From Planctomycetaceae bacterium (lineage in GTDB: Bacteria > Planctomycetota > Planctomycetia > Pirellulales > Pirellulaceae): 12,163 nucleotides of DNA. Shown piece by piece: positions 1-11,887 of the stretch. The stretch's first letter is position 1; every line of letters begins with the position of its first letter. The stretch covers positions 1-12,163 of the forward strand of contig SKVE01000682.1 of assembly GCA_007129635.1 (NCBI GenBank), in the 5' to 3' direction. The notes under the pieces were generated by a model, which saw nothing but the letters and a program-made list of their open reading frames with translations, was not told the DNA's origin and ran no database searches. A program made the translations under genes and the position numbers.

Positions 1-789
1 CTGGCCGTGACGCTGGGCTATGGGAAAGTCTGCGGATTACTGGGCAAACAGTTCACTCATCTGATGATTATCGTTAGTGCGGCCACCTTGCTGTGGGGGT
101 TGGTGTGCGCGACATTTTTCGGCGTCAAATTGTATACGCCGTTGATCGACGTCAGTTTGGAGGAATCATCCCGAAATTTCTTGATGTTGTTAAGCTTTTG
201 GATGGGAGCGATCCATCTGAGCACCGCCCAGCTTTGGCGTGCCGTCCGGATGTTCCCCAACCAGCAATTCGTCAACCGCGTCGGCTGGATGATTTTCATC
301 TGGGGAATGCTGGGCGTCGTGCTGCATTTCGTGTTGAACTGGCCCTTCAACTGGCAAACACCTTGGCCCTATCTGATGATTGTGGGGGCCGTGCTAGTGA
401 TAGGCTTCGCGTACCCCAAGCTCTGGTGGGTTAAGCGTCTGCTGCTGGGCGTGGCCGATTTTCCGCTCTCGATGCTCTCGACGTTCTCCGATGTGATCAG
501 CTACGTGCGGCTGATGGCCGTCGGATTGGCCAGCAGCGTGCTGGCGGAAAGCTTTAACAACATGGCCATGGCTGTGGTCAGCGAAGGGGGTGGCATCATC
601 CAATGGCCGCTGATGATCGTCATTTTGTTTTTCGGGCACAGCTTGAATCTTTGCTTGGCTATGATCGCCATGTTCGCACACGGTGTGCGGTTGAATATGC
701 TCGAGTTCTGTAACAACCTCGGCATGCAATGGACGGGATATCAGTACCATCCCTTCTCACAACGAACCACTCAGGAGTATCAGACATGA
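1..789 (+). CDS. ntpI: V-type ATP synthase subunit I (V0 a-subunit), C-terminal part; 5' end outside window
   Basis: This is the membrane stator subunit of a V/A-type rotary ATPase. With the K ring it forms the ion path across the cytoplasmic membrane. The reading frame is open from base 1, so the cytoplasmic N-terminal half lies upstream; an internal GTG at 7 is not a credible start. The visible 262 residues are mostly hydrophobic helices. The diagnostic stretch is SDVISYVRLMAVGLASS, whose Arg (codon 508-510) corresponds to the essential proton-path arginine of the family. A second family signature follows near the C-terminus, MFAHGVRLNMLEF, ending in a GYQYHPF tail. The stop codon (787-789) overlaps the ATG of the K subunit as ATGA, so the two are translationally coupled within an ATPase operon. 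Whether it pumps H+ or Na+, or synthesises ATP, cannot be read here. Confidence 0.93.
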   Translation: MAVTLGYGKVCGLLGKQFTHLMIIVSAATLLWGLVCATFFGVKLYTPLIDVSLEESSRNFLMLLSFWMGAIHLSTAQLWRAVRMFPNQQFVNRVGWMIFIWGMLGVVLHFVLNWPFNWQTPWPYLMIVGAVLVIGFAYPKLWWVKRLLLGVADFPLSMLSTFSDVISYVRLMAVGLASSVLAESFNNMAMAVVSEGGGIIQWPLMIVILFFGHSLNLCLAMIAMFAHGVRLNMLEFCNNLGMQWTGYQYHPFSQRTTQEYQT

Positions 790-1304
790 TAGGGTACGCG
801 GCGTTTTGTGGATTATTTATGGTTGGTTTGCCGGTTCTGTTCGGCTGGGCGGACTTCTTCGGCCAAATGGGTAGCGTCTTGGCCTTGGGAATGGCTGCCG
901 CTGGAAGCGCGATCGGGTTGGGCTTGGCCGGTCAGGCAGCCGCTGGCGCCTGGGCGAAAGAAGCCCGCGCCGGGCGGAACTTGAACTTTACCTATATCAT
1001 CCTTACCGGGATGCCCATCAGCCAGACGCTGTACGCCCTGATCATCATGAACAACATGAGCACGGCGGTGGCCAATGGTGATTTCGGTACCGGGCAGTTC
1101 GGCTTGTTGTTCGGGATCGGTTTAGGAACGGGCATGGCGGAAATGCTTTCGGCCTGGATGCAGGGCATGGTCGGCGCGGCCGGAATCCGAGCGCTCAGCG
1201 ACGGAGAAGGGAAAGTGTTCGCCTTCGTGATCATCGCCATGGGTATCGTCGAAACGGTCGGTATCTTCGCGATGGTGTTCCTCCTGGGCATGATCCCCTC
1301 GTAA
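786..1304 (+). CDS. ntpK: V-type ATP synthase subunit K (proteolipid c-ring, double hairpin)
   Basis: This is the rotor-ring proteolipid of the V-ATPase, 172 aa. The start at 786 is chosen because AGGAG (773-777) sits 8 nt upstream and the ATG overlaps the ntpI stop; an ATG at 729 in the same frame lies inside ntpI and has no comparable site. Two homologous Gly/Ala-rich hairpins are visible, about residues 28-92 and 103-170. In the second, IVETVGIF carries the ion-binding Glu156. In the first, the equivalent place is Gln80 in PISQTLYALII. This one-carboxylate-per-double-hairpin pattern is typical of V-type K subunits. Residues 1-25 form an extra hydrophobic segment before the first hairpin that shorter bacterial homologues seem to lack; it may be a fifth membrane helix or a signal-like leader. 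A hairpin terminator follows about 50 nt downstream, so this is probably the last gene of its operon. Confidence 0.93.
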   Translation: MIGYAAFCGLFMVGLPVLFGWADFFGQMGSVLALGMAAAGSAIGLGLAGQAAAGAWAKEARAGRNLNFTYIILTGMPISQTLYALIIMNNMSTAVANGDFGTGQFGLLFGIGLGTGMAEMLSAWMQGMVGAAGIRALSDGEGKVFAFVIIAMGIVETVGIFAMVFLLGMIPS

Positions 1305-1356
1305 GCGAACGACGGCCTCGTTCATCCGCGAACGCTGGGCCGCACGATTGATCACC

Positions 1357-1425
1357 AGGGCGAATGAGACGGACAGGATCGCAGGTTCCTTGCATCCTGA
1401 GGGTCTCATTCGCCCTGTTTTCTTT
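1357..1425 (+). terminator. Rho-independent terminator after ntpK
   Basis: A perfect 14-bp inverted repeat, AGGGCGAATGAGAC (1357-1370) and its complement (1403-1416), encloses an inner imperfect stem (CAGGAT at 1374-1379 with ATCCTG at 1394-1399). It is followed by GTTTTCTTT. Its position 53 nt after the ntpK stop fits the end of the ATPase operon. Confidence 0.8.
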
Positions 1426-1452
1426 CCTTGCGCTGCTTTCGCCGGATGACGG

Positions 1453-1481
1453 TTGCCGAACCCGGCGTCGCTGGGTATGAT
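1453..1481 (+). promoter_or_regulatory. Candidate sigma70-type promoter for feoAB
   Basis: TTGCCG (1453-1458) and TATGAT (1476-1481) are separated by 17 nt. They match the -35 consensus at 4 of 6 and the -10 consensus at 5 of 6 positions. They lie between the ATPase terminator and feoA, with a predicted start of transcription near 1488. This is by-eye matching only; start sites in this phylum are poorly defined by consensus. Confidence 0.35.
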
Positions 1482-1495
1482 AACGGTATTGTTTC

Positions 1496-1510
1496 TGAGA
1501 TACAGTATCA
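1496..1510 (+). promoter_or_regulatory. Candidate Fur-type operator upstream of feoAB
   Basis: TGAGATACAGTATCA matches the 7-1-7 Fur consensus TGATAATnATTATCA at 10 of 14 positions, with the right half nearly complete. It contains a perfect 11-bp palindrome, GATAC-A-GTATC, at 1499-1509. It lies just downstream of the candidate promoter, where a bound repressor would block transcription. Iron repression of feoAB is common, which makes the call plausible. Another metal regulator could use the same dyad. Confidence 0.35.
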
Positions 1511-1595
1511 CTAATGCCGTCGTGTGGGTTGGCCCCAGGGCAAATCGCGGTGGCCAGTGGTCGATTCGCTTCGTTTTTTGTTTGGAATCTGTACC

Positions 1596-1832
1596 GTGAG
1601 CGCATTTCTTCCCCTGTTCCGGTTGGCGGCTGGCCAAATCGGTGAAATCGAGTCGATTTCGGGTGAGCCCAGTCAGGTCCATCGACTTCACGAACTGGGC
1701 TTGTACCAAGGGATCAAGGTCACCATGATCCGCTCGGGAACGCCTTGTGTGATCCGTCTGGCAGGCCATAAGTTGTGTTTTCGGCAGAACGACGGCCTGG
1801 ACATTCAAGTTCGCCCGTTAGCGGGGATCTAG
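1596..1832 (+). CDS. feoA: FeoA, small SH3-like partner of the Fe(II) transporter
   Basis: FeoA is a small cytoplasmic protein that works with FeoB in ferrous iron import. From the GTG at 1596 it is 78 aa, the usual family length. The frame stays open upstream to a GTG at 1524, but the residues that would be added are not FeoA-like, so the later start is preferred; GGAA at 1583-1586 is only a weak ribosome site. The body reads as a FeoA/SH3 barrel: LRLAAGQIGEIESISG-type opening (here FRLAAGQIGEIESI), the RLHELGLYQGIKVTMI motif typical of the family, and a final VIRLAGHKLCFRQNDGLDI strand pair. The stop TAG is followed directly by the feoB ATG with no gap, so translation is coupled. Confidence 0.85.
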   Translation: MSAFLPLFRLAAGQIGEIESISGEPSQVHRLHELGLYQGIKVTMIRSGTPCVIRLAGHKLCFRQNDGLDIQVRPLAGI

Positions 1833-4130
1833 ATGTCCAGCGCTGTGGAAACCCGAGCGGGATCGCGGACGGTCACTATCGCGCTGCTCGGTAACCCGAA
1901 CACGGGCAAGTCCACGCTGTTCAATGCACTGGCGGATGTTCGACAGCATGTCGGCAACTATCCGGGCGTAACCGTGGAAAAAAAGATCGGCCATGTCCTG
2001 GTGGATGGCCAACGGTTCGCTCTGGTCGATTTGCCTGGAACCTACAGTTTGGCGCCGCGTTCGCCGGACGAGATGGTGACAGTCGACGTGCTGTTGGGTC
2101 GGCAGACCGACGTCGCGGCCCCCGACGTGATCCTATGTGTCGTGGACGCCAGCAAACTGGAACGGAATCTCTATCTGGTCAGCCAGGCCATCGAACTGGG
2201 CTTACCGACGGTGGTGGTCCTGAACAAGATGGACGTGGCTTCCGAACATGGGATCGAGCTGGATCTTGCGTTGCTGCAGAAGAGACTGGGCGTTCCGGTG
2301 ATTCCGTTGCAGGCGGATCGGCGCATCGGGCTGGAGTCGCTGAAGCAGGAGCTTCCGCAAGTGATCGAGCAGACCTCGATCGCGTCGGAGTTACCGTTCC
2401 CCGACGCCTTTCGTCAAGAGGTCGTGCGGCTGCAAAGCGATCTTCAGGACGCGTCGTCCCAGGCCGGATCGGGGGCGACGTTGCCTCGTTATCTGGTCGA
2501 GCGTTTGTTGCTGGACCAAGGTGGTTATGTAGAACAGGCCGATCTACCCGGAGTGACAAGTGCGGTGTTGGAACGGGTGAGCGAAGCTCGGGCCAGGTTG
2601 GCCAACGCGGGATTTCCGGTCCCGGCTGTCGAGGCCAAGACGCGGTACCAGTGGGTGGCGCAGATGCTGGATGGCGCCGTGGTCAGCCGATCCGACGACC
2701 GAATCACACTGACCGACCGCCTGGACCAATGGTTGATGCATCGCGTTTGGGGAACTGCCCTCTTCATCGCCGTGATGGTTGTCGTCTTCCAGTCGATCTT
2801 TACGTGGGCGATACCACTGATGGATTTGATCGAGAAAGTGATCGGCTGGCTGAGCGGATCGATTTCAGCCGTCATGGCTGAAGGCGCGTTGCGATCTCTG
2901 CTGGCCGACGGGGTGTTAGCAGGGGTGGGCAGCGTGCTGGTATTTTTGCCACAGATCCTGATCCTGTTTTTCTTCATCGCGCTGCTGGAAGAATGTGGCT
3001 ACATGGCGCGAGCCGCCTACCTGATGGACCGATTGATGTACCGGGTTGGGTTGAGTGGGAAATCGTTCATCCCGCTGCTGTCTTCGTTCGCCTGTGCCGT
3101 GCCGGGGATCATGTCGACTCGGGTCATCGAAGACCGCCGGGACCGTCTGGTCACGATCCTGGTCGCACCGTTGATGACTTGCAGCGCCCGTCTGCCCGTT
3201 TACACGCTGTTGATCGCTGCCTTTATCCCCGACCAGCGTTGGCTGGGCGGTTGGCTGGGCCTGCAGGGAATGACGATGCTGGCGCTGTACCTGCTGGGGA
3301 TGGTCACGGCCGTGCTGGCCGCCTGGCTGTTCAAACGCACGCTTCTACGCGGCCAGACCCCCGCCTTTATCATGGAATTGCCTCATTACCGATTCCCCTC
3401 GCTGCGGACCGTCGTCCGTCGCATGCTGGAAAACGGCTGGGCCTTCCTCAGCGGCGCTGGCACGTTGATCCTGGTCGTCGCCATCCTGGTCTGGGCGGCA
3501 GCTTACTTCCCGCACCCTCCCGAACTGGGCAGCCAAGTACGAGCTGGCTACGCGGAACAACTGGCTGCGCTGGAGCAACGCGAGCAGGGCTTGCAGGACC
3601 AGGACGATCTGTCCGAGGACCAGCGCCAGGCGGCGTTGGACCAATTGCTCGAAGAGCGGGGCGAACTGCGAGCGGAAATCTCGTCGGCGGTTGCTGCGGC
3701 CTACATGGAGCAGAGTTATTTAGCACGAGCCGGGTATTTCATCGAACCGGTGGTACGGCCTTTGGGCTGGGATTGGCGGATCGGTTGTGCCGTCATCGCC
3801 TCGTTCCCAGCTCGTGAAGTCGTCGTGGGCACGTTAGGCGTCATCTACCATCTGGGCGAAGGCGAAGACGAAACCTCTGAATCGCTCCGCGAGACGCTGC
3901 GCTCCGCCACCTGGCCGGGGACCGAACGCAAGGTCTTCAACGTCCCCGTGGCCTTATCGCTGATGGTCTTTTTCGCCCTATGCGCTCAATGCGCGGCCAC
4001 CTTGGCCATCATCCGCCGCGAGACCAACAGTTGGGCCTGGCCCATCTTTACCTTCGTCTACATGACCTCGCTGGCCTATGTCGGAGCCCTGATTACCTAC
4101 CAAACCGGAATGCTGTTCGTCGGCGGTTAA
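1833..4130 (+). CDS. feoB: FeoB, Fe(II) transporter with N-terminal GTPase domain
   Basis: This inner-membrane ferrous iron transporter has 765 aa. The N-terminal G domain shows G1 GNPNTGKST (20-28), G2 Thr47 in NYPGVT, G3 DLPG (66-69) and G4 NKMD (131-134). The G5 position reads PLQADRRIG rather than the usual S-A form. A helical spacer (about 190-290) precedes the membrane domain. There the first gate motif is FACAVPGIMSTR with Cys421, and the second is MTCSARLPVYTL with Cys450; both match the conserved FeoB pore regions. Residues about 571-624 form a hydrophilic, Glu/Gln/Leu-rich, probably coiled-coil insertion just before the last conserved block (FIEPVVRPLGWDWRIG and FPAREVVVGTLG). No FeoC follows. 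The next gene converges from the opposite strand. Confidence 0.96.
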   Translation: MSSAVETRAGSRTVTIALLGNPNTGKSTLFNALADVRQHVGNYPGVTVEKKIGHVLVDGQRFALVDLPGTYSLAPRSPDEMVTVDVLLGRQTDVAAPDVILCVVDASKLERNLYLVSQAIELGLPTVVVLNKMDVASEHGIELDLALLQKRLGVPVIPLQADRRIGLESLKQELPQVIEQTSIASELPFPDAFRQEVVRLQSDLQDASSQAGSGATLPRYLVERLLLDQGGYVEQADLPGVTSAVLERVSEARARLANAGFPVPAVEAKTRYQWVAQMLDGAVVSRSDDRITLTDRLDQWLMHRVWGTALFIAVMVVVFQSIFTWAIPLMDLIEKVIGWLSGSISAVMAEGALRSLLADGVLAGVGSVLVFLPQILILFFFIALLEECGYMARAAYLMDRLMYRVGLSGKSFIPLLSSFACAVPGIMSTRVIEDRRDRLVTILVAPLMTCSARLPVYTLLIAAFIPDQRWLGGWLGLQGMTMLALYLLGMVTAVLAAWLFKRTLLRGQTPAFIMELPHYRFPSLRTVVRRMLENGWAFLSGAGTLILVVAILVWAAAYFPHPPELGSQVRAGYAEQLAALEQREQGLQDQDDLSEDQRQAALDQLLEERGELRAEISSAVAAAYMEQSYLARAGYFIEPVVRPLGWDWRIGCAVIASFPAREVVVGTLGVIYHLGEGEDETSESLRETLRSATWPGTERKVFNVPVALSLMVFFALCAQCAATLAIIRRETNSWAWPIFTFVYMTSLAYVGALITYQTGMLFVGG

Positions 4131-5785: not shown

Positions 5786-5909
5786 CCAAAAAGGACAAGC
5801 TAAAAAGGACAGGCATTGTTTGGCAATGCCAAAAAGGCCAAAAAGGACAGGCATGTTTTGTGCGGAGGTCCGATTTTTTTGATTTTGCAAGAAGATGGTA
5901 TTTCAATGT
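5786..5909 (+). repeat. REP-like repeat cluster downstream of the RAYT gene
   Basis: This cluster has one perfect copy of AAAAGGACAGGCATT (5803-5817), one 14-base copy (5841-5854), and a degenerate copy, AAAAGGACAAGC (5789-5800). The perfect copy runs into a 7-bp hairpin, GGCATTG (5812-5818) with CAATGCC (5824-5830). From 5841 the sequence lines up without gaps with the element starting at 9781, with about 40 of 60 bases identical by hand count. It therefore looks like a decayed full unit lacking its right arm. The rest of this 360-nt gap holds the pfkA leader and no gene I can support. Confidence 0.8.
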
Positions 5910-6069
5910 GTCATGAGTGCCTGGCTCGAAGGTCTTTAGACACAGAGGATTTGGCGTGGCGCATCGGTAGTGCGGTGGATTGACGAAGACGAGCGTGAAA
6001 CGAGCGAACCCGATCAAATTCGGGCGTCTGGATAACGAAGACGTAGGATGGAAGACTCGATGACCGGGC
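5910..6069. other. Gene-free stretch between repeat cluster and RAYT stop
   Basis: I see no coding signal here. It holds a 5-bp hairpin, CCCGA (6009-6013) with TCGGG (6020-6024), and a 9-nt direct repeat, ACGAAGACG (5983-5991 and 6034-6042). These could be part of the 3' flank that travels with the RAYT gene. There is no T-run to mark a terminator. Confidence 0.4.
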
Positions 6070-7104
6070 TCAGGCAGGCGAAGCGGCCACGTTGTCCAGG
6101 TGATGGACGCCTCGCTGCTGGGCGATCTGGCGTAACCGCTGCCGATCCGTACTGAAATAGCTGCCCATTAACCGCGTTTTTCCCAACAGCCGCTGAATCC
6201 GCTGCCCCCACACTTCGTCGCTGGTTCCCAAGCGGTCCAGGATCGAAGCCAACTCGCGGCTCACCCGTGCTTTGCCCTGGCGGCACAACCGGCTGGTGTA
6301 GTCGACCAGCAATAGATAACTACCCAACGAGAAGCCCTCGAGCAGCCCTTCGCGTTGCGAACCCTCACGGCGCCGGTCTTCGATCGGGCACAGCCACAGA
6401 TCCTCTTCCACCGCCCCCGCAGCGCGGCTGCCCGCGACACTGCCACTGGCCGCCGCCTTCAAGTCTTTGAGTTTCCCTCGAGCCGCGGCATGCTGCACTC
6501 GCTGATGCACCGACGTGTGCGGGCTCGTCTCCGGCGTGGCCGCCAACCCGGCCGCCACGGGATTCAGGTCGATATACGCACAAGTGGCCAGCAACGCTTC
6601 GTCGTCCAGAATGGCAATCGACTTGAAACGCGCCTCCCAAAAGGCGCCTTTGCAGTCATCTTCCTTGTTTGCCAGGCGGGCCAGGGGCTCCTTCAAGGCC
6701 TTCATGAACCAGCCCAAGTTACTCAGCCGTGCGCGTAAGACCTCCACACGTTGCTCGTCGCTGGCCAGATCCTCGATCCTGGCCTGGGGCACTTCGAGCA
6801 CCTGTCCGTCGGCCGACTTGGGCGGATACGCCAACAACCACCGCCGGACGACATCCTCGGCCGACCAGTCGTTGGCGGCGTCCGGGTCCAACCGCACCAA
6901 GACGTGCAGGTGGTTGTCCATGACGGCGAAGCCACAAACGCTCACGGCGAAGGCGCCGGAGAGTGTCTGCAAGCGGTCTTCGATCCACTGCTTGCGGTGC
7001 TCAGAACCCTCGCCCAAAAGCAGTGCTTTTCTGGTACAGCGGGAAATACAGTGATAGTAACGAGTTACGTTTACGTCCACGAGTTGGCTTCGAGCTGTAG
7101 TCAT
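6070..7104 (-). CDS. REP-associated tyrosine transposase (RAYT), Y1/HUH nuclease family
   Basis: This is a single-strand DNA endonuclease of the IS200-like Y1 superfamily, the type usually immobile and linked to dispersed REP repeats. It has 344 aa. The start at 7104 is preferred to an in-frame ATG at 7170 because AGGAGG (7111-7116) lies 6 nt upstream and the extra codons fall inside repeat DNA. The opening TRYYHCISRC is typical. The metal-binding HUH motif is His65-Leu-His67 in MDNHLHVLV. GAFWEARFKS (154-163) and YIDLNPVAAG (177-186) are RAYT signatures, with Tyr177 the expected nucleophile. All catalytic residues are present, so it appears intact. Residues about 190-344 form a long C-terminal extension with no motif I recognise. 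It is flanked on both sides by inverted clusters of one 15-bp repeat, its likely partner. Confidence 0.9.
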   Translation of the reverse strand: MTTARSQLVDVNVTRYYHCISRCTRKALLLGEGSEHRKQWIEDRLQTLSGAFAVSVCGFAVMDNHLHVLVRLDPDAANDWSAEDVVRRWLLAYPPKSADGQVLEVPQARIEDLASDEQRVEVLRARLSNLGWFMKALKEPLARLANKEDDCKGAFWEARFKSIAILDDEALLATCAYIDLNPVAAGLAATPETSPHTSVHQRVQHAAARGKLKDLKAAASGSVAGSRAAGAVEEDLWLCPIEDRRREGSQREGLLEGFSLGSYLLLVDYTSRLCRQGKARVSRELASILDRLGTSDEVWGQRIQRLLGKTRLMGSYFSTDRQRLRQIAQQRGVHHLDNVAASPA

Positions 7105-7110
7105 CACGAA

Positions 7111-7116
7111 TCCTCC
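7111..7116 (-). promoter_or_regulatory. Ribosome binding site fixing the RAYT start
   Basis: AGGAGG on the - strand, 6 nt before the ATG at 7102-7104. It is a perfect Shine-Dalgarno match and rules against the longer reading frame that begins at 7170. Confidence 0.8.
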
Positions 7117-7138
7117 TATTGGGAAATGCAACATCAGT

Positions 7139-7253
7139 TTCATGATAACTTCGTCCGCTTCCAAATGCAAGTAGATAATGCCTGTCCTTTTCTTTTCTTC
7201 ATGATAACTTCGTCCGCTTCCAAATGCAAGTGGATAATGCCTGTCCTTTTCTT
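7139..7253. repeat. Tandem duplication of a 56-bp unit carrying the REP-like repeat
   Basis: Copies at 7139-7194 and 7198-7253 differ at one base (A at 7173, G at 7232), with a period of 59. Each ends in AATGCCTGTCCTTTT (7177-7191 and 7236-7250). A third partial copy, CTGTCCTTTT, follows at 7254-7263. These are inverted relative to the cluster at 5786-5909, so the RAYT gene is bracketed by inverted repeats. The near identity points to a recent duplication. Confidence 0.9.
7142..7170 (-). promoter_or_regulatory. Candidate RAYT promoter, inside the duplicated repeat unit
   Basis: On the - strand, TTGCAT (7165-7170) and TATCAT (7142-7147) are 17 nt apart, giving a predicted start near 7135 and a leader of about 30 nt containing the AGGAGG. 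The -10 matches 5 of 6; the -35 matches only 3 of 6. The same pair recurs at 7224-7229 and 7201-7206 in the second copy of the duplication, so the promoter is doubled. Confidence 0.35.
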
Positions 7254-7256
7254 CTG

Positions 7257-7287
7257 TCCTTTTTTTCTTTTCTTTTCTTTTTTCTTT
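7257..7287. repeat. Pure pyrimidine tract with TTTTC iterations
   Basis: Thirty-one consecutive pyrimidines, including repeated TTTTC blocks, follow the last repeat copy. This is a slippage-prone low-complexity tract; as polypurine on the other strand it could form unusual DNA structure. No gene covers it. From here to 7400 I see only the leader of the sialidase gene. Confidence 0.7.
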
Positions 7288-7400
7288 GAAACGGTATGCA
7301 AGGGTGCTAAATGCTCATATATTTTTACCAGCGAAGCTAAGACATGCTCTTGACGTTGAAGCGAATCACCGTTTCAGACGAAACATTGAGGAGCCATGCA

Positions 7401-8612
7401 ATGAATGACGACCGACGTGAGTTACGCGAACGCGTTCGGGCCGTGGCGTACGCGACCCTTTTGGCAACGCTGTGGGCCGCCGGTGCGGCTGCGGTGGAGT
7501 GCTTGCCTGACGGGTTGCCGCAAACGGCCACCGGCTTGCCAGCGGAGGCCGATCTGGAGCCGTTCCTGGGCGACCCAAAGTTCGAGGTGCAGCCGGTGTT
7601 CCGAGGCCAGCGTCTGCCCAACGTCGTCGTGGCGACGGACGGCGCGGTGCTGGCCGTGTGGGGGTGGGGCACGGTGCGGGTGCGCCGTAGCGAAGACGGC
7701 GGCGACACCTGGGCCCCGGAAGTCGCCCTGCGTGAGGGCCTCAACTCGGGCGGCGCAGTGGTCGATGAGAACACGGGCGATATCCTCGTGTTCACCGAGG
7801 AAAAACACCCACCCGCGCCGCTGCACGTGTTCCGCAGCACCGACCACGGAAACACGTGGGCGGAGCAGGAGGTCGTGATCCATCCCGACGAAAAGGGGAA
7901 CGTTCCGTCGATGTGCATGAACGAACGCGGCATCACGCTCCGGCACGGCGAACACGCCGGACGGTTGCTGCGCCCGTCGCGGTCGTACATGGGCGGCAAC
8001 GATCGCAAGTATTGGCCGCAGCATTACACCAACGCTGTCTACAGCGACGACGGCGGCAAGAGCTGGCACACCAGCGCGCCGTTCCCTGCCAGCGGCACAG
8101 GCGAAGCCACGCTGGGCGAGCTTTCCAATGGTCGGATTTACTACAACTCGCGCCGGCACCTTTCAACCGACGGACTGAACCCTCGTATGAGGCATATCGC
8201 TTACAGCGAGGATGGCGGCCAAACCTGGCAGGATCTTTCCGTCAGCGACGTCCTGCCTGACGGCGCCCAGGATCGGGACTACGGCCTGATGGCTGGCCTG
8301 GTGCGTCTGCCCGTCCGCGGGCGCGATATCCTGGTGTTCAGCAACATTGTCTCGTCCAGCGGACGCCACAACGGGCACGTGTGGGGCAGCTTCGACGGCG
8401 GCCAGACGTGGCCGGTCAAACGGCAGGTGGACGAGGGCTCGTTCGCGTACTCGTCGCTGGCCGCCGGACGGCCTGCAACGCCCAGCGAAGGCTGGATTTA
8501 CCTGCTATACGAAGGCTCCGGCGAAGGGCGCATTGCACGGTTCAACCTCGCTTGGCTGCTCGAGGGCGAACCGACCGGCGACGGCGAGGTGCCGAAACTG
8601 GTAGGGTGGTGA
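7401..8612 (+). CDS. Exported sialidase-family (BNR/Asp-box) protein, GH33-like
   Basis: This is a likely secreted or periplasmic exo-sialidase, releasing sialic acid or a related sugar from glycans. From the ATG at 7401 (GAGGAG at 7388-7393) it is 403 aa; an in-frame ATG at 7344 lacks a ribosome site. Residues 1-31 form a signal peptide ending in GAAA. Five Asp boxes mark a six-bladed propeller: SEDGGDTW (97), STDHGNTW (146), SDDGGKSW (215), SEDGGQTW (269) and SFDGGQTW (330). The catalytic pattern is visible: Arg71 in the RLP motif (normally RIP), Glu235 in GEATLGEL, Arg251 in YYNSRR, Arg322 in SSGRHNG, and Tyr350 in FAYSSLA. I did not place the acid/base Asp with confidence. The aldolase-family gene follows on the same strand after 166 nt. 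The true sugar substrate is not certain. Confidence 0.87.
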   Translation: MNDDRRELRERVRAVAYATLLATLWAAGAAAVECLPDGLPQTATGLPAEADLEPFLGDPKFEVQPVFRGQRLPNVVVATDGAVLAVWGWGTVRVRRSEDGGDTWAPEVALREGLNSGGAVVDENTGDILVFTEEKHPPAPLHVFRSTDHGNTWAEQEVVIHPDEKGNVPSMCMNERGITLRHGEHAGRLLRPSRSYMGGNDRKYWPQHYTNAVYSDDGGKSWHTSAPFPASGTGEATLGELSNGRIYYNSRRHLSTDGLNPRMRHIAYSEDGGQTWQDLSVSDVLPDGAQDRDYGLMAGLVRLPVRGRDILVFSNIVSSSGRHNGHVWGSFDGGQTWPVKRQVDEGSFAYSSLAAGRPATPSEGWIYLLYEGSGEGRIARFNLAWLLEGEPTGDGEVPKLVGW

Positions 8613-8778
8613 AAAGCAAGTCACCGTTTTGGTGGGGCTTCGGTCGCTCTTGTCAACCGTTCTTCCAGCGAACGGCGGGCAAATGGGCCCGGCCGTCGCT
8701 TGCCCTGTCCCACCAAGAACGACGCGACCTTGGCCCACCCCACAACCACACGCTACAGTCCACAATCACCGGAGCGTT

Positions 8779-9720
8779 ATGAAACCACTCACACCAGACC
8801 AAATCCGCGGCAATTGGGCAACGTTGCTTTCGGCATGGAACACCGACGACTCGCTCGACCTGGGCCGCATCGCCGCCGAAGTCGATGCGCTCATTGCCAT
8901 GCGGGTGGACGGCATCTACTCGAACGGCACGGCAGGCGAATTCCACGCCCAAACCGAGGACGAGTTCGATCGGATTTCGCAATGCCTCGCGGACAAGTGC
9001 AACGCCACGGACATGCCGTTCCAAATCGGCGTCAGTCACATGAGCGCGCAGATCTCCCGCGAACGTCTACGCCGCGTCGTTCCCCTGGCACCGGGTGCGG
9101 TGCAGGTGATCCTGCCCGACTGGTTCCCGGTGACCGACCTGGAGGCAGCGACGTTCCTGGAGCAGATGGCAGAAGCGGCCGGCGGCATCGGGCTGGTGCT
9201 GTACAATCCGCCGCACGCCAAACGTATCCTTGTACCTGAGCAAGTCAGCCAACTTGGCGAACGTGTGCCGGCCCTGGTGGGTTGGAAGACGGCCGGCGGC
9301 GACGACGCGTGGTATGCGGCCATGCGCCGGCACGTGCCGCAGGTGAGCGTTTTCGTGCCGGGGCATCTGCTGGCAAGCGGCATCTGCCGCGGTGCGTGCG
9401 GCGCCTATTCCAACGTGGCGTGCCTCAACCCGCGAGCCGCCCAGCGCTGGACCGATCAGATGCAGACCGACATGCCGGCGGCGCTCGAACTGGAAGGACG
9501 GTTGCGACGGTTCATGGACCGGTATATCCGGCCCTTCATCGAGGAACAGAGCTTCTGCAACGCCGCCTGCGACCGATTCATGGCTCTCCTGGGCGGCTGG
9601 ACCGATGTGGGCGATCGGATGCGCTGGCCGTATCGTTCCATTCCGGCAGGCGAGGTGGAACGAATCCGGCACGCCGCCAAGACGCTGATTCCCGAGTTCA
9701 TGGAACAGAACACGGTGTGA
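8779..9720 (+). CDS. Dihydrodipicolinate synthase / N-acetylneuraminate lyase family protein (divergent)
   Basis: This is a class I aldolase-type TIM barrel that would form a Schiff base with a 2-oxo acid. The start at 8779 has GGAG at 8771-8774; 313 aa, the normal family length. Lys170 (LVGWKTAGG) is the Schiff-base lysine and Tyr142 (VLYNPP) the catalytic tyrosine. The substrate loop is SNGTAGEF (48-55), keeping the first Thr of the GTTGE/GSTGE motif but with Ala52 for the second. The usual Tyr of the proton relay is absent from LPDWFPVTD (112-120), and the DHDPS Arg after YNxP is replaced. It is therefore probably not a true DapA. Being downstream of a sialidase, a role in sialic acid or sugar-acid cleavage is possible, but gene order is the only support. 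Confidence 0.82.
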   Translation: MKPLTPDQIRGNWATLLSAWNTDDSLDLGRIAAEVDALIAMRVDGIYSNGTAGEFHAQTEDEFDRISQCLADKCNATDMPFQIGVSHMSAQISRERLRRVVPLAPGAVQVILPDWFPVTDLEAATFLEQMAEAAGGIGLVLYNPPHAKRILVPEQVSQLGERVPALVGWKTAGGDDAWYAAMRRHVPQVSVFVPGHLLASGICRGACGAYSNVACLNPRAAQRWTDQMQTDMPAALELEGRLRRFMDRYIRPFIEEQSFCNAACDRFMALLGGWTDVGDRMRWPYRSIPAGEVERIRHAAKTLIPEFMEQNTV

Positions 9721-9780
9721 CCAACGACTGCAGCGGCCATCATGGACTGGAAGCACGCCCAGCCGAGCAAGATGAAGGCG

Positions 9781-9876
9781 AAAAGGACAGGCATTGTTTG
9801 TGCGATCGATCAGATATTCTCGTTTTTCGAGAAGTAAATAATGCCTGTCCTTTTGGGAATAATGCCTGTCCTTTTG
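9781..9876. repeat. REPIN-like element: inverted pair of the 15-bp repeat plus tandem third copy
   Basis: AAAAGGACAGGCATT (9781-9795) and its exact complement AATGCCTGTCCTTTT (9840-9854) bracket a 44-nt spacer. The spacer contains the palindrome GATCGATC (9804-9811) and a hairpin, TTCTCG (9817-9822) with CGAGAA (9828-9833) around five T's. A further copy lies at 9861-9875; the 19-nt string AATAATGCCTGTCCTTTTG recurs at 9837 and 9858 with period 21. It lies between the convergent lyase and aldo/keto reductase genes and may also end transcription. Confidence 0.88.
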
Positions 9877-9938
9877 TGCTTTTGAGTCTCCTGACGCTCT
9901 GGCCGACGACGTGAACGTAGCCGTGGGTTTTGCGAGGC

Positions 9939-11008: not shown

Positions 11009-11887
11009 TTATGATGAAATCGTTTGATCGACGGCACGCCGGTATCCTTTGACGACGATACGATCCGGCTGGACATCGACCAGGGCATAGGAGCTGTTTT
11101 CGGGCCCCGAGCCTTCGACCATGGCTCGAAGCGTATAGTAATGGATACCTTCCAGTTCGCGGTACGAACCGGAATGATGGTGTCCCTGAAACACGGCGAG
11201 TACCTTGCCGGAATCCTCCAGAACGTTCCGCACCTCGGCCGCATTCTTGACAAAGATGTTGCCCGAACCGTCCAGAAGCTGGTGGATGAATACGATCACC
11301 GGGTGCGGCGAATCCTCCAGTTGTTCTTTGATCCACCGGAGTTCCTCGGCGGGGATGTTGGCATCGGTCCACTGGAAGTCGCCACGATCATAGGGCGCCC
11401 CATCGGAGCGGAAACAGGCGTCCAGCACCAGGAATCGCCGCCCGCCGCGATCGAAAGAAAAATAAGAGCGTTCCGGATCGATGCCTGTATTTTTGATCTG
11501 ACCGAGCACCTGCGTTTTGGACAAGGCGTCCATGTTATGGTTGCCCAGCACGTGGTAGCGTGGTCCCGAAAACCGAGCGAACCGAGCCTCGATCTCGCTC
11601 AGAAAACGCAGGGCGTCCTCTTCCGCCGGTTTTCGAGCTCCATCGTTAAAGTCGCCCAGGTCGACCAGGAACTCCGCCCCCTGCTGGTTCATGCTCTCGA
11701 CACATTCGCTCATCTTGGTCAGCGACTCGCGGTAATGGCGATTCCCCAACGTTTCGTAGTCCGCGTAGTGCGCATCGGTTACCAGTCCGAAACGCAGCAC
11801 GGGTTGCTCGGCCGTCGAGCCTCGGCGCGGCAGCGTCAGGACCGTCAGCGATGCCAGGACAAATTTACGGCGGTTGGTCTTTGGCAT
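11009..11887 (-). CDS. Tat-exported calcineurin-like metallophosphoesterase
   Basis: This dinuclear-metal phosphoesterase has 292 aa and an unknown phosphate ester or nucleotide substrate. The five metal-binding blocks are in order: Asp38-x-His40 (VTDAHYAD), Gly-Asp79 (VDLGDFND), Gly-Asn116-His117 (VLGNHNMD), His202 (FIHQLL) and GHHH with His236 and His238. The N-terminus, NRRKFVLASLTVL (5-17), is a twin-arginine signal, so the enzyme acts outside the cytoplasm. The start at 11887 is the only sensible one before the Tat motif; GAAGGAA about 8 nt upstream is a fair ribosome site. The nearest family resemblance is to secreted phosphatases or phosphodiesterases of the calcineurin fold. It lies between the Rid-family gene (45-nt gap) and the aldo/keto reductase (20-nt gap). 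Confidence 0.88.
   Translation of the reverse strand: MPKTNRRKFVLASLTVLTLPRRGSTAEQPVLRFGLVTDAHYADYETLGNRHYRESLTKMSECVESMNQQGAEFLVDLGDFNDGARKPAEEDALRFLSEIEARFARFSGPRYHVLGNHNMDALSKTQVLGQIKNTGIDPERSYFSFDRGGRRFLVLDACFRSDGAPYDRGDFQWTDANIPAEELRWIKEQLEDSPHPVIVFIHQLLDGSGNIFVKNAAEVRNVLEDSGKVLAVFQGHHHSGSYRELEGIHYYTLRAMVEGSGPENSSYALVDVQPDRIVVKGYRRAVDQTISS

Follow-up and report, generated by a model that had tools for sequence, protein, structure and literature searches.

The repeat that brackets a RAYT gene in this planctomycete contig very probably marks the two ends of a mobile element: AAAAGGACAGGCATT ... AATGCCTGTCCTTTT would serve as terminal inverted repeats (TIRs) for an IS-like element, ~1.4 kb long, whose gene specifies a Y1 HUH RAYT of subclass 2.3. 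Carrying this reading are a shared upstream end, the inward orientation of the repeats, the multiplicity of the element, RAYT-derived interiors in three of eight small inverted pairs, and repeat variants that track the transposase clade. The window, by which we mean the whole stretch of DNA analyzed, comprises 12,163 nt (contig SKVE01000682.1 of GCA_007129635.1), and its source genome (G000) is a MAG of 64% completeness.

Repeat Copies in the Window and the Source Genome

How are the copies arranged? AATGCCTGTCCTTTT occurs exactly six times in the window, and a seventh copy has one mismatch; all seven lie where a sequence-only reading had placed them, and the partial, outward copies that it reported are real too (AAAAGGACAAGC at 5789–5800, minus strand; CTGTCCTTTT at 7254–7263, plus strand). 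One extra match, at 11480, has 3 mismatches; the shuffled window gave a mean of 0.18 matches with ≤3 mismatches and a maximum of 2. The RAYT gene lies on the minus strand at 6070..7104 (344 aa, ATG at 7104), and the clusters to its left and right point in opposite directions, as that reading had also said. At the right end, downstream of the gene, stand an exact copy (5803..5817, minus) and the 14-of-15 copy (5841..5855, minus). The left, upstream end has exact copies at 7177..7191 (plus), where similarity among RAYT copies stops or continues for ≤8 bases, and at 7236..7250 (plus), the latter within a 59-bp tandem duplication of the repeat and its 5′ leader. From outermost to outermost repeat, the putative IS-like element spans 5803..7250 on the minus strand, with an upstream edge set by comparison and a less sharp downstream edge. 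Exact copies at 9781..9795 (minus) and 9840..9854 (plus) form a small inverted pair, whose outer edges enclose a 74-bp candidate nonautonomous element (9781–9854) with an interior that gave no clear RAYT match; an extra exact copy (9861..9875, plus) faces the same way as the 9840 copy.

Is the word confined to this locus? The genome-wide count that had been proposed as a check found 45 exact occurrences of the 14-mer ATGCCTGTCCTTTT in the source genome (22 plus, 23 minus) and none in the reversed control, so the word is not rare. The 15-mer with ≤2 mismatches has 59 matches (36 exact, 12 with one, and 11 with two; reversed control, 2). The 45 copies of the 14-mer family are dispersed and include pairs and tandems. 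That all copies are intergenic holds in the window, where they sit between recognized genes and some short mechanical frames cross them; genome-wide, however, not every copy is plainly intergenic, with a stop-to-stop frame of ≥150 codons covering 24 of the 32 sites that could be judged among the 45. Because frames of this length occupy 92% of the judged loci, the overlap amounts to only a mild avoidance of frames. By eye, the C782 copy is apparently coding and is conserved in a relative (G002).

Ends of the Putative Element Compared Across Genomes

Where do related copies stop resembling the window? RAYT copies elsewhere match it upstream as far as 7191–7199, the outer repeat edge being 7191 (L080, 7191; L095, L123, and L130, 7192; L094, 7196; L059, 7199), and one (L087) extends to 7251, where the second repeat copy has its outer edge. 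Downstream, the matches of L094 and L095 stop at 5898 and 5908, before reaching the repeat. When the source genome is set against G002, the match is lost ≤2 bases from the outer repeat edge at C142, C689, and C691. At C83 and C936 it is lost 11 and 23 bases beyond that edge, and partial copies take up the gap. Twelve comparisons of these two genomes over 11 sites (nine inspected) yielded no clean two-sided empty site, and no movement was observed. Genomes hold RAYT copies at several locations, bounded upstream by the repeat, and in another relative (G001), 13 of 18 repeat copies lie ≤300 bp from RAYT-like sequence. Judged by such sequence comparisons, the 15-mer behaves as a putative TIR of an IS-like element.

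Could a larger unit have moved? Outer repeats at 5803 and 9861 might mobilize the RAYT along with sialidase-like and lyase-like genes as a composite of ~4 kb, which we consider unlikely. This idea draws on G002, which lacks window positions 7251–9929 at an apparently orthologous site, the missing stretch both beginning and ending, in the window, near direct repeat copies; however, its loss by deletion between those copies, or its independent gain, explains that difference equally well. G001 also speaks against the composite, since its best lyase and sialidase matches are on other contigs, and its fetched stretches (1–1500 and 1–3200) contain no repeat with ≤1 mismatch.

Small Inverted Pairs

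Opposite-facing neighbors <200 bp apart in the source genome face inward in seven of seven cases. Eight pair interiors (seven from G000, one from G002) were scored against RAYT elements, and three are clearly RAYT-derived (C83, 61; C805, 63; the G002 pair, 55; shuffle maxima, 26–28). Those of C689 and C176 are borderline, and among the eight pairs scored, no clear RAYT origin was found for the interiors of the window pair, C691, or C876. The inverted pairs elsewhere look like small, MITE-like derivatives of the RAYT element.

Co-Occurrence of Repeat and Transposase

Does the repeat keep company with the transposase? Across 241 family genomes, source included, at least two exact copies were found in 9 of the 14 whose listed RAYT matches reach ≥60% identity, 3 of the 22 whose matches reach 45–59%, and 2 of the 205 others (Fisher, 9/14 vs. 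5/227, P ~ 6e-10, kinship ignored). Genomes were assigned to these classes by eye, using the matches listed, with ≤8 candidates scored per genome, so fragments may be missed. Five genomes (G003, G029, G060, G071, and G160) have a listed match of ≥60% and no exact 14-mer. Rarity of the word, or its abundance in relatives without such a RAYT, had been named as counting against the link; the word proved common enough in the source genome, but two genomes, G161 with 14 copies and G024 with 3, have it while no close RAYT was found for them among the matches listed, and another seven to nine genomes hold a single copy. The link itself, originally drawn from position, is supported by the shared upstream ends, the three pair interiors, and the co-occurrence in these 241 genomes.

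A repeat family of the host, some regulatory or DNA-uptake-like word among whose copies the RAYT and the pairs inserted by chance, would likewise put a short word in many places and would accommodate the apparently coding, conserved C782 copy. We nevertheless regard it as highly improbable: the exact word is missing from G003, of the same genus, and from 218 of the 241 family genomes; known uptake words have copy numbers far above 45; some pair interiors originate from the RAYT element; and the motif faces inward around homologues in other phyla (below).

Folding of the Repeat

Might the repeat be read as a structure? In a true noncanonical REP or REPIN, the single repeat would replicate and be recognized by its fold, with a domesticated, vertically kept RAYT. 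The many solo and tandem copies lean that way, as do flanks that could close a run of ≥5 pairs around the core in 19 of the 45 source-genome copies and an inner 45 nt that folds slightly more stably than its shuffled versions (mean z −0.9, vs. −0.35 outside). However, pairing around the core in the source genome shows no excess over permuted flanks (mean 4.16 vs. 4.12), and the family-wide excess is marginal (3.12 vs. 2.99, sd 0.06) and falls within the spread of 300 permutations. A search for a constant GTAG-type foot or a conserved subterminal hairpin turned up nothing convincing, and the presence of several RAYT copies per genome, bounded upstream by the repeat, is a further point against this alternative, to which we assign a low probability. 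The earlier statement that only paired inverted copies can fold was nearly right in that pairing does not rise above permuted flanks, although those 19 copies could close such a run. Its filing of the system as a noncanonical REP was wrong, because the repeat has no palindrome and no constant GTAG foot and acts as a putative TIR with candidate MITE-like derivatives. Tried as a canonical REP, the window repeat shows neither the palindromic stem-loop nor the 5′ GT[AG]G foot.

The Transposase

The window RAYT matches Pfam Y1_Tnp (E 1e-5, 26.1 bits; cut-off 23) and NCBIfam REP_Tyr_transpos (E 2.9e-11, 43.4 bits, under the cut-off of 80). An alignment with 14 relatives gives its motifs as NHLH (HUH), YIDLNP, and FWE, with Tyr177, in YIDLNP, as the presumed catalytic residue. 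Among PDB entries, its predicted fold comes closest to 4er8 (E 3.5e-4), the structure of a RAYT together with its REP hairpin, and its C-terminal part is long and mostly helical in a low-confidence model. The median HuH–Y distance is 110 in the 102 of 105 family proteins that have both motifs. Going by the distance of 110, the window RAYT fits TnpA-Y1 subclass 2.3 as a putative member; for that subclass the text of Quentin 2018 (PMC6006769) gives the same median distance, a median length of 325, a specific C-terminal domain, and the motifs YVDLNP (Y), WE (W), and NHYH (HuH). As that text describes the subclass, the likeness extends to the many Gammaproteobacteria and several copies per genome and may extend to the long protein and YxDLNP, whereas NHLH in place of NHYH and a host in the Planctomycetota set the window RAYT apart.

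A Motif Shared Across the Family

Is this kind of system peculiar to the window locus? No: versions of a skeleton, RGACA-NN-CAY, face the gene in homologues, mostly of Gammaproteobacteria, and flank many relatives. In 75 loci from the best 80 of at least 540 relatives (L200, L206, L214, L249, and L275 left out), GACA[CG]NCA[CT] occurs 132 times inward and 5 times outward; this strict motif is absent from 17 of the 75. Plasmid loci fetched afterwards gave 26 inward and 4 outward in 12 of 14 records (H1 and H14 left out), which are not 12 independent cases because 7 are Pseudoalteromonas. Distal flanks, taken as a control at 49 of the 75 loci, held 15 inward and 19 outward occurrences upstream and 38 and 9 downstream and are thus skewed on the downstream side; motif density per kb was 0.24 inward and 0.13 outward there, versus 2.56 and 0.10 near the gene. 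Among 61 planctomycete RAYT loci (eight skipped: L058, L059, L102, L103, L104, L118, L123, and L139), 23 lack an inward copy of any of three motif versions.

The variable bases follow the tree of transposase proteins more closely than randomized labels do: TIR type switches 28 times along it, whereas none of 300 shuffles needed fewer than 37 switches (68 of 105 rows with a single dominant TIR type; ties and blanks excluded). A further RAYT type, at C788, also occurs in the source genome; the repeat on its flanks is a different one, GGTGCCACCCAT, with 18 copies (reversed control, 0). Microbulbifer was the only gammaproteobacterium in which the 14-mer was counted, and all five of its copies lie around the RAYT, with no dispersal seen.

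Proposed Mechanism and Its Implications

How might such an element move? For binding, cleavage with its strand and polarity, mobilization in trans, and what the variable bases do, we infer the following. The transposase would recognize the TIR core, with its skeleton facing the gene, and Tyr177 would cut and rejoin a single DNA strand, either at the outer repeat edge or close to it. Acting in trans on internally deleted copies, the enzyme could generate the short inverted pairs; acting on single ends, it could leave solo and tandem copies with junctions near the repeat edge. Each transposase clade tends to retain its own variable bases and flanks. A bolder generalization, possible but tentative and in our judgment somewhat doubtful, is that RAYTs of subclass 2.3 (perhaps 2.1) are active IS-like transposases reading a hairpin-free RGACA-NN-CAY end, with the variable bases and flanks as a clade-specific address; such an address would let several of these elements share one genome without mixing.

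If the TIR reading is true, some RAYTs would be mobile elements, equipped with TIRs and accompanied by small derivatives, and not domesticated genes. The end motif flanks many transposases of one of the larger RAYT subclasses, reported in a dedicated survey as without REP-like sequences, whose DNA partner had stayed open; because the motif came from one locus set and was recovered in loci fetched later, the partner question becomes testable with oligonucleotides. The natural variants offer material for asking how an HUH enzyme recognizes a non-hairpin end.

Comparison with Known Systems

How does this system relate to those already described? It shares with canonical REP/RAYT systems (REPtrons; subclasses 2.2, 2.4, and 2.5) the Y1 HUH fold and repeats that are inverted around the gene and dispersed, and differs in its lack of a GTAG-foot palindrome, its element-like multiplicity, and its putative MITE-like derivatives. 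The Y1 HUH fold and IS-like multiplicity also recall IS200/IS605, which has subterminal hairpins and is described in the text of Nunvar 2010 as without TIRs, whereas here TIRs are present and there is no general subterminal hairpin signal. For subclass 2.3, the text of Quentin 2018 (PMC6006769) reports no REP-like sequences beside the genes, unlike the inward-facing TIR motifs found here; a search of open-licence journal texts, and of the listed titles and abstracts matching the letters GGACAGGCA, found no TIRs of this subclass. By the same text, 20 of 26 published TIRYTs belong to subclass 2.1, six to 2.2 and 2.5, and none to 2.3.

The nearest described kind is the TIRYT/TIRtron (Di Nocera 2013). 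Some published TIRs have in common a motif, GGGGWSAS, which is therefore not defining for TIRYTs; both GGGGACAG and GGGGACAC fit it and resemble RGGACA[GC] (text of PMC3733652). Some relatives (L151, L162, and L238) read GGGGACAG or GGGGACAC, and the window repeat, which reads AAGGACAG, does not match GGGGWSAS. Unlike the published TIRs compared, the TIR here is RGACA-NN-CAY with variable middle bases; as a caution on this difference, PMC3733652 also mentions numerous repeat-flanked genes for tyrosine transposases in the planctomycete R. baltica. What the two kinds share, as TIRYTs are described there, is a RAYT-like gene flanked by non-GTAG, nonpalindromic inverted repeats, with some TIRs that, in certain species, form dispersed families of singles, dimers, or clusters. 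The 15-mer system is a variant of the TIRYT/TIRtron.

The repeat in the window and across its genome

Pfam matches in the window comprise feoB, pfkA, a Y1 transposase gene (the RAYT; 6070-7104, minus strand), a BNR sialidase-like gene, a DHDPS-family gene and an aldo/keto reductase gene, plus weak V-ATPase and phosphoesterase matches. The RAYT has an 88% match over 192 residues to a locus of the Planctomycetaceae isolate CSSed162cmA_153 (L200). The sequence-only reading had placed seven copies of a 15-mer, with partial copies, around this gene; all are present (5803-, 5841-, with 14 of 15 bases, 7177+, 7236+, 9781-, 9840+ and 9861+; partial, 5789-5800 and 7254-7263), against a mean of 0.18 hits in shuffled windows. 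Across the source genome (G000; a 5.0-Mb assembly of 1,022 contigs, 64% completeness), ATGCCTGTCCTTTT occurs 45 times (22 plus, 23 minus) and its reversed pattern never; allowing up to two mismatches, the 15-mer occurs 59 times (36 exact) and its reversed pattern twice. All seven opposite-facing neighbors less than 200 bp apart face inward, as AAAAGGACAGGCAT...ATGCCTGTCCTTTT. The pfkA neighborhood varies in gene order among relatives: the pfkA match of G003 (L193, contig C68) sits between V-ATPase and feo matches, and G002 (L191, contig C618, 566-893) retains a 53-bp V-ATPase gene match between a repeat pair and pfkA.

The repeat as the probable end of a RAYT element

Where does the element end? 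The first upstream repeat has its outer edge at 7191, and upstream similarity to RAYT copies elsewhere ends at 7191 (L080), 7192 (L095, L123 and L130), 7196 (L094) or 7199 (L059). The match to an apparent ortholog (L072) also ends at 7191, while that to L087 reaches 7251, where the second upstream copy has its edge; L096 and L103 are uninformative here, because their match stops at the start codon. Downstream, the L094 and L095 matches end at 5898 and 5908, before reaching the repeat, so this edge is less sharply shown than the upstream one; L094 has an additional short match to 5803-5860, apart from its main one, and L095 has a near-repeat after the downstream end of its match. By eye, the L095 copy seems to split another reading frame.

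De novo inverted repeats flanking many homologue genes have one skeleton in common (RGACA-NN-CAY), and in a motif-free count the 8-mers most often common to both flanks were GACACCCA (13 loci) and GACAGGCA (9 loci). Within 350 nt of the gene at 75 loci, the strict motif GACA[CG]NCA[CT] occurs 132 times facing inward and 5 times outward (inward in 58 loci, on both sides in 29, outward in 5). At 73 of the 75 loci, at least one copy of the looser G[AC]CANNCA faces inward; in all, 213 copies are inward and at least 19 outward, the latter figure coming from the ten commonest outward words. Because the motif was derived from these loci themselves, 12 plasmid loci were fetched later as a test: the strict motif occurs 26 times inward and 4 outward (11 of 12 loci) and the loose one 41 and 5 (all 12), although these are not 12 independent cases, seven being from Pseudoalteromonas. 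Among 61 planctomycete loci, the strict motif is inward 30 times and outward twice; two further versions, taken from these planctomycete loci themselves, GGGACANAGC and G[GT]GCCACCCA, occur 27 and 23 times inward and never outward, and 23 loci have no inward copy of any of the three.

Distinct RAYT types within one genome carry distinct ends: a second type in G000 (contig C788 and others) is flanked by its own repeat, GGTGCCACCCAT, with 18 copies genome-wide and none of the reversed control. On a quick-method tree of 105 proteins, in which 28 of the 101 inner branches are open and L262 has a very long branch, terminal inverted repeat type in 68 rows takes 28 changes, against a mean of 42.7 and a minimum of 37 in 300 shuffles, a result aided by near-identical rows from the same genome.

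Co-occurrence of repeat and RAYT

We classed 241 family genomes, including G000, by RAYT identity among the matches listed. At least two exact copies of the 14-mer core were found in 9 of 14 genomes with a match of at least 60% identity, in 3 of 22 at 45-59% and in 2 of the remaining 205 (G161, 14 copies; G024, 3); nine further genomes have a single copy. The association (9/14 versus 5/227) gives a Fisher P of ~6e-10 with genomes taken as independent and kinship ignored. The exact 14-mer is absent from five close-RAYT genomes (G003, G029, G060, G071 and G160), three of which show fragments only: G003, G029 and, for matches of this identity, G071. In G001, RAYT-like sequence is found less than 300 bp away from 13 of the 18 repeat copies. 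G161 has no close RAYT among the matches listed; five of its copies are no more than 120 bp from where a contig begins, and the assembly may therefore have missed the gene. G079, with 129 exact copies in 4.2 Mb and at least six RAYT matches at 63-67%, is a good genome for studying repeat spread.

Junctions and small inverted pairs

We ran 12 comparisons with G002, a member of the same genus whose matches here are mostly 92-97% identical, and inspected nine sites. Identity is lost within two bases of the repeat outer edge on contigs C142, C689 and C691, and 11 and 23 bases outside it on C83 and C936, where partial copies occupy the gap. G000 lacks ~82 bases next to the repeat on C142, tandem copy number differs on C758 and C685, a gap of ~500 bases on C720 includes the repeats, and the C782 site shows no difference and looks coding. 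No clean two-sided empty site appeared among the nine.

At the window's own site, G002 seemingly has the RAYT: one contig ends at window position 6201 and another starts at 6741, and we infer that the two adjoin. G002 lacks window 7251-9929 at the apparently orthologous site; this segment, holding the sialidase-like and DHDPS-family genes, starts and ends near direct repeat copies in the window. Truncated copies of the repeat's outer part are nested beside full ones at L055 (C936), L022 (C685) and L047 (C758). Another dispersed sequence, containing CACGGACGCGAGTCCGTGG, adjoins some repeat copies on the inner side (L005 on C142, L052 on C828, and in G002) and has at least 12 matching places in G002.

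We aligned the interiors of eight inverted pairs, trimmed by 15 bases per end, to six RAYT references, with 60 shuffles each. The C83 interior (score 61) and a G002 pair between feoB and pfkA (55) match the downstream part of the RAYT element, and C805 (63) matches the inside of the transposase gene (shuffle maxima 26-28 in all three). C689 (28, reached in 2 of 60 shuffles) and C176 (25, in 1 of 60) are borderline, and no similarity to the six references was found for the window pair at 9781-9854 (22), C691 (20) or C876 (17). These scores therefore demonstrate an internal-deletion origin for three of the eight pairs. A word search found little in most pairs besides the repeats themselves.

Transposase family, probable mechanism and nearest known system

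The RAYT protein is alignable with 14 relatives over most of its length. Among the best 80 of at least 540 relatives in an alignment scan, most are Gammaproteobacteria, many of them from marine genera, about ten are Planctomycetota and a few belong elsewhere; tblastn against plasmids gave 14 records, seven from Pseudoalteromonas and one each from seven other genera. The predicted model has a mean pLDDT of 68 (by tens, 79-97 for residues 41-140, 59-78 in the Tyr helix, lower in the C-terminal part). Its top PDB match, and sole one below 0.001, is 4er8 (E = 3.5e-4); the sequence profile gave no confident solved relative. The median HuH-Tyr distance, taken over the 102 of 105 proteins in which both motifs occur, is 110, equal to the median published for TnpA-Y1 subclass 2.3 by Quentin 2018 (PMC6006769), who give 58-67 for most subclasses, 88 for 2.4 and 82 for 2.6. 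For subclasses 2.1 and 2.3, that study states that it obtained no REP-like sequences, whether by automatic or by manual search.

Characterized Y1 enzymes cut single-stranded DNA via a tyrosine and rejoin it (PMC8266576). By analogy, this transposase would cut single-stranded DNA via Tyr177 and then rejoin it; its unusual feature is probably the target, a short non-palindromic end presumed to be recognized. When the DNA is single-stranded, the two ends may pair together, and the outer edge may be used repeatedly, as hinted by the outward partial copies nested beside full repeats.

The nearest kind to the window element is the TIRYT/TIRtron of Di Nocera 2013 (PMC3733652). The planctomycete R. 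baltica is credited there with many flanking repeats. Compared with that description, the window case would widen the kind to take in subclass 2.3, and its motif is shorter.
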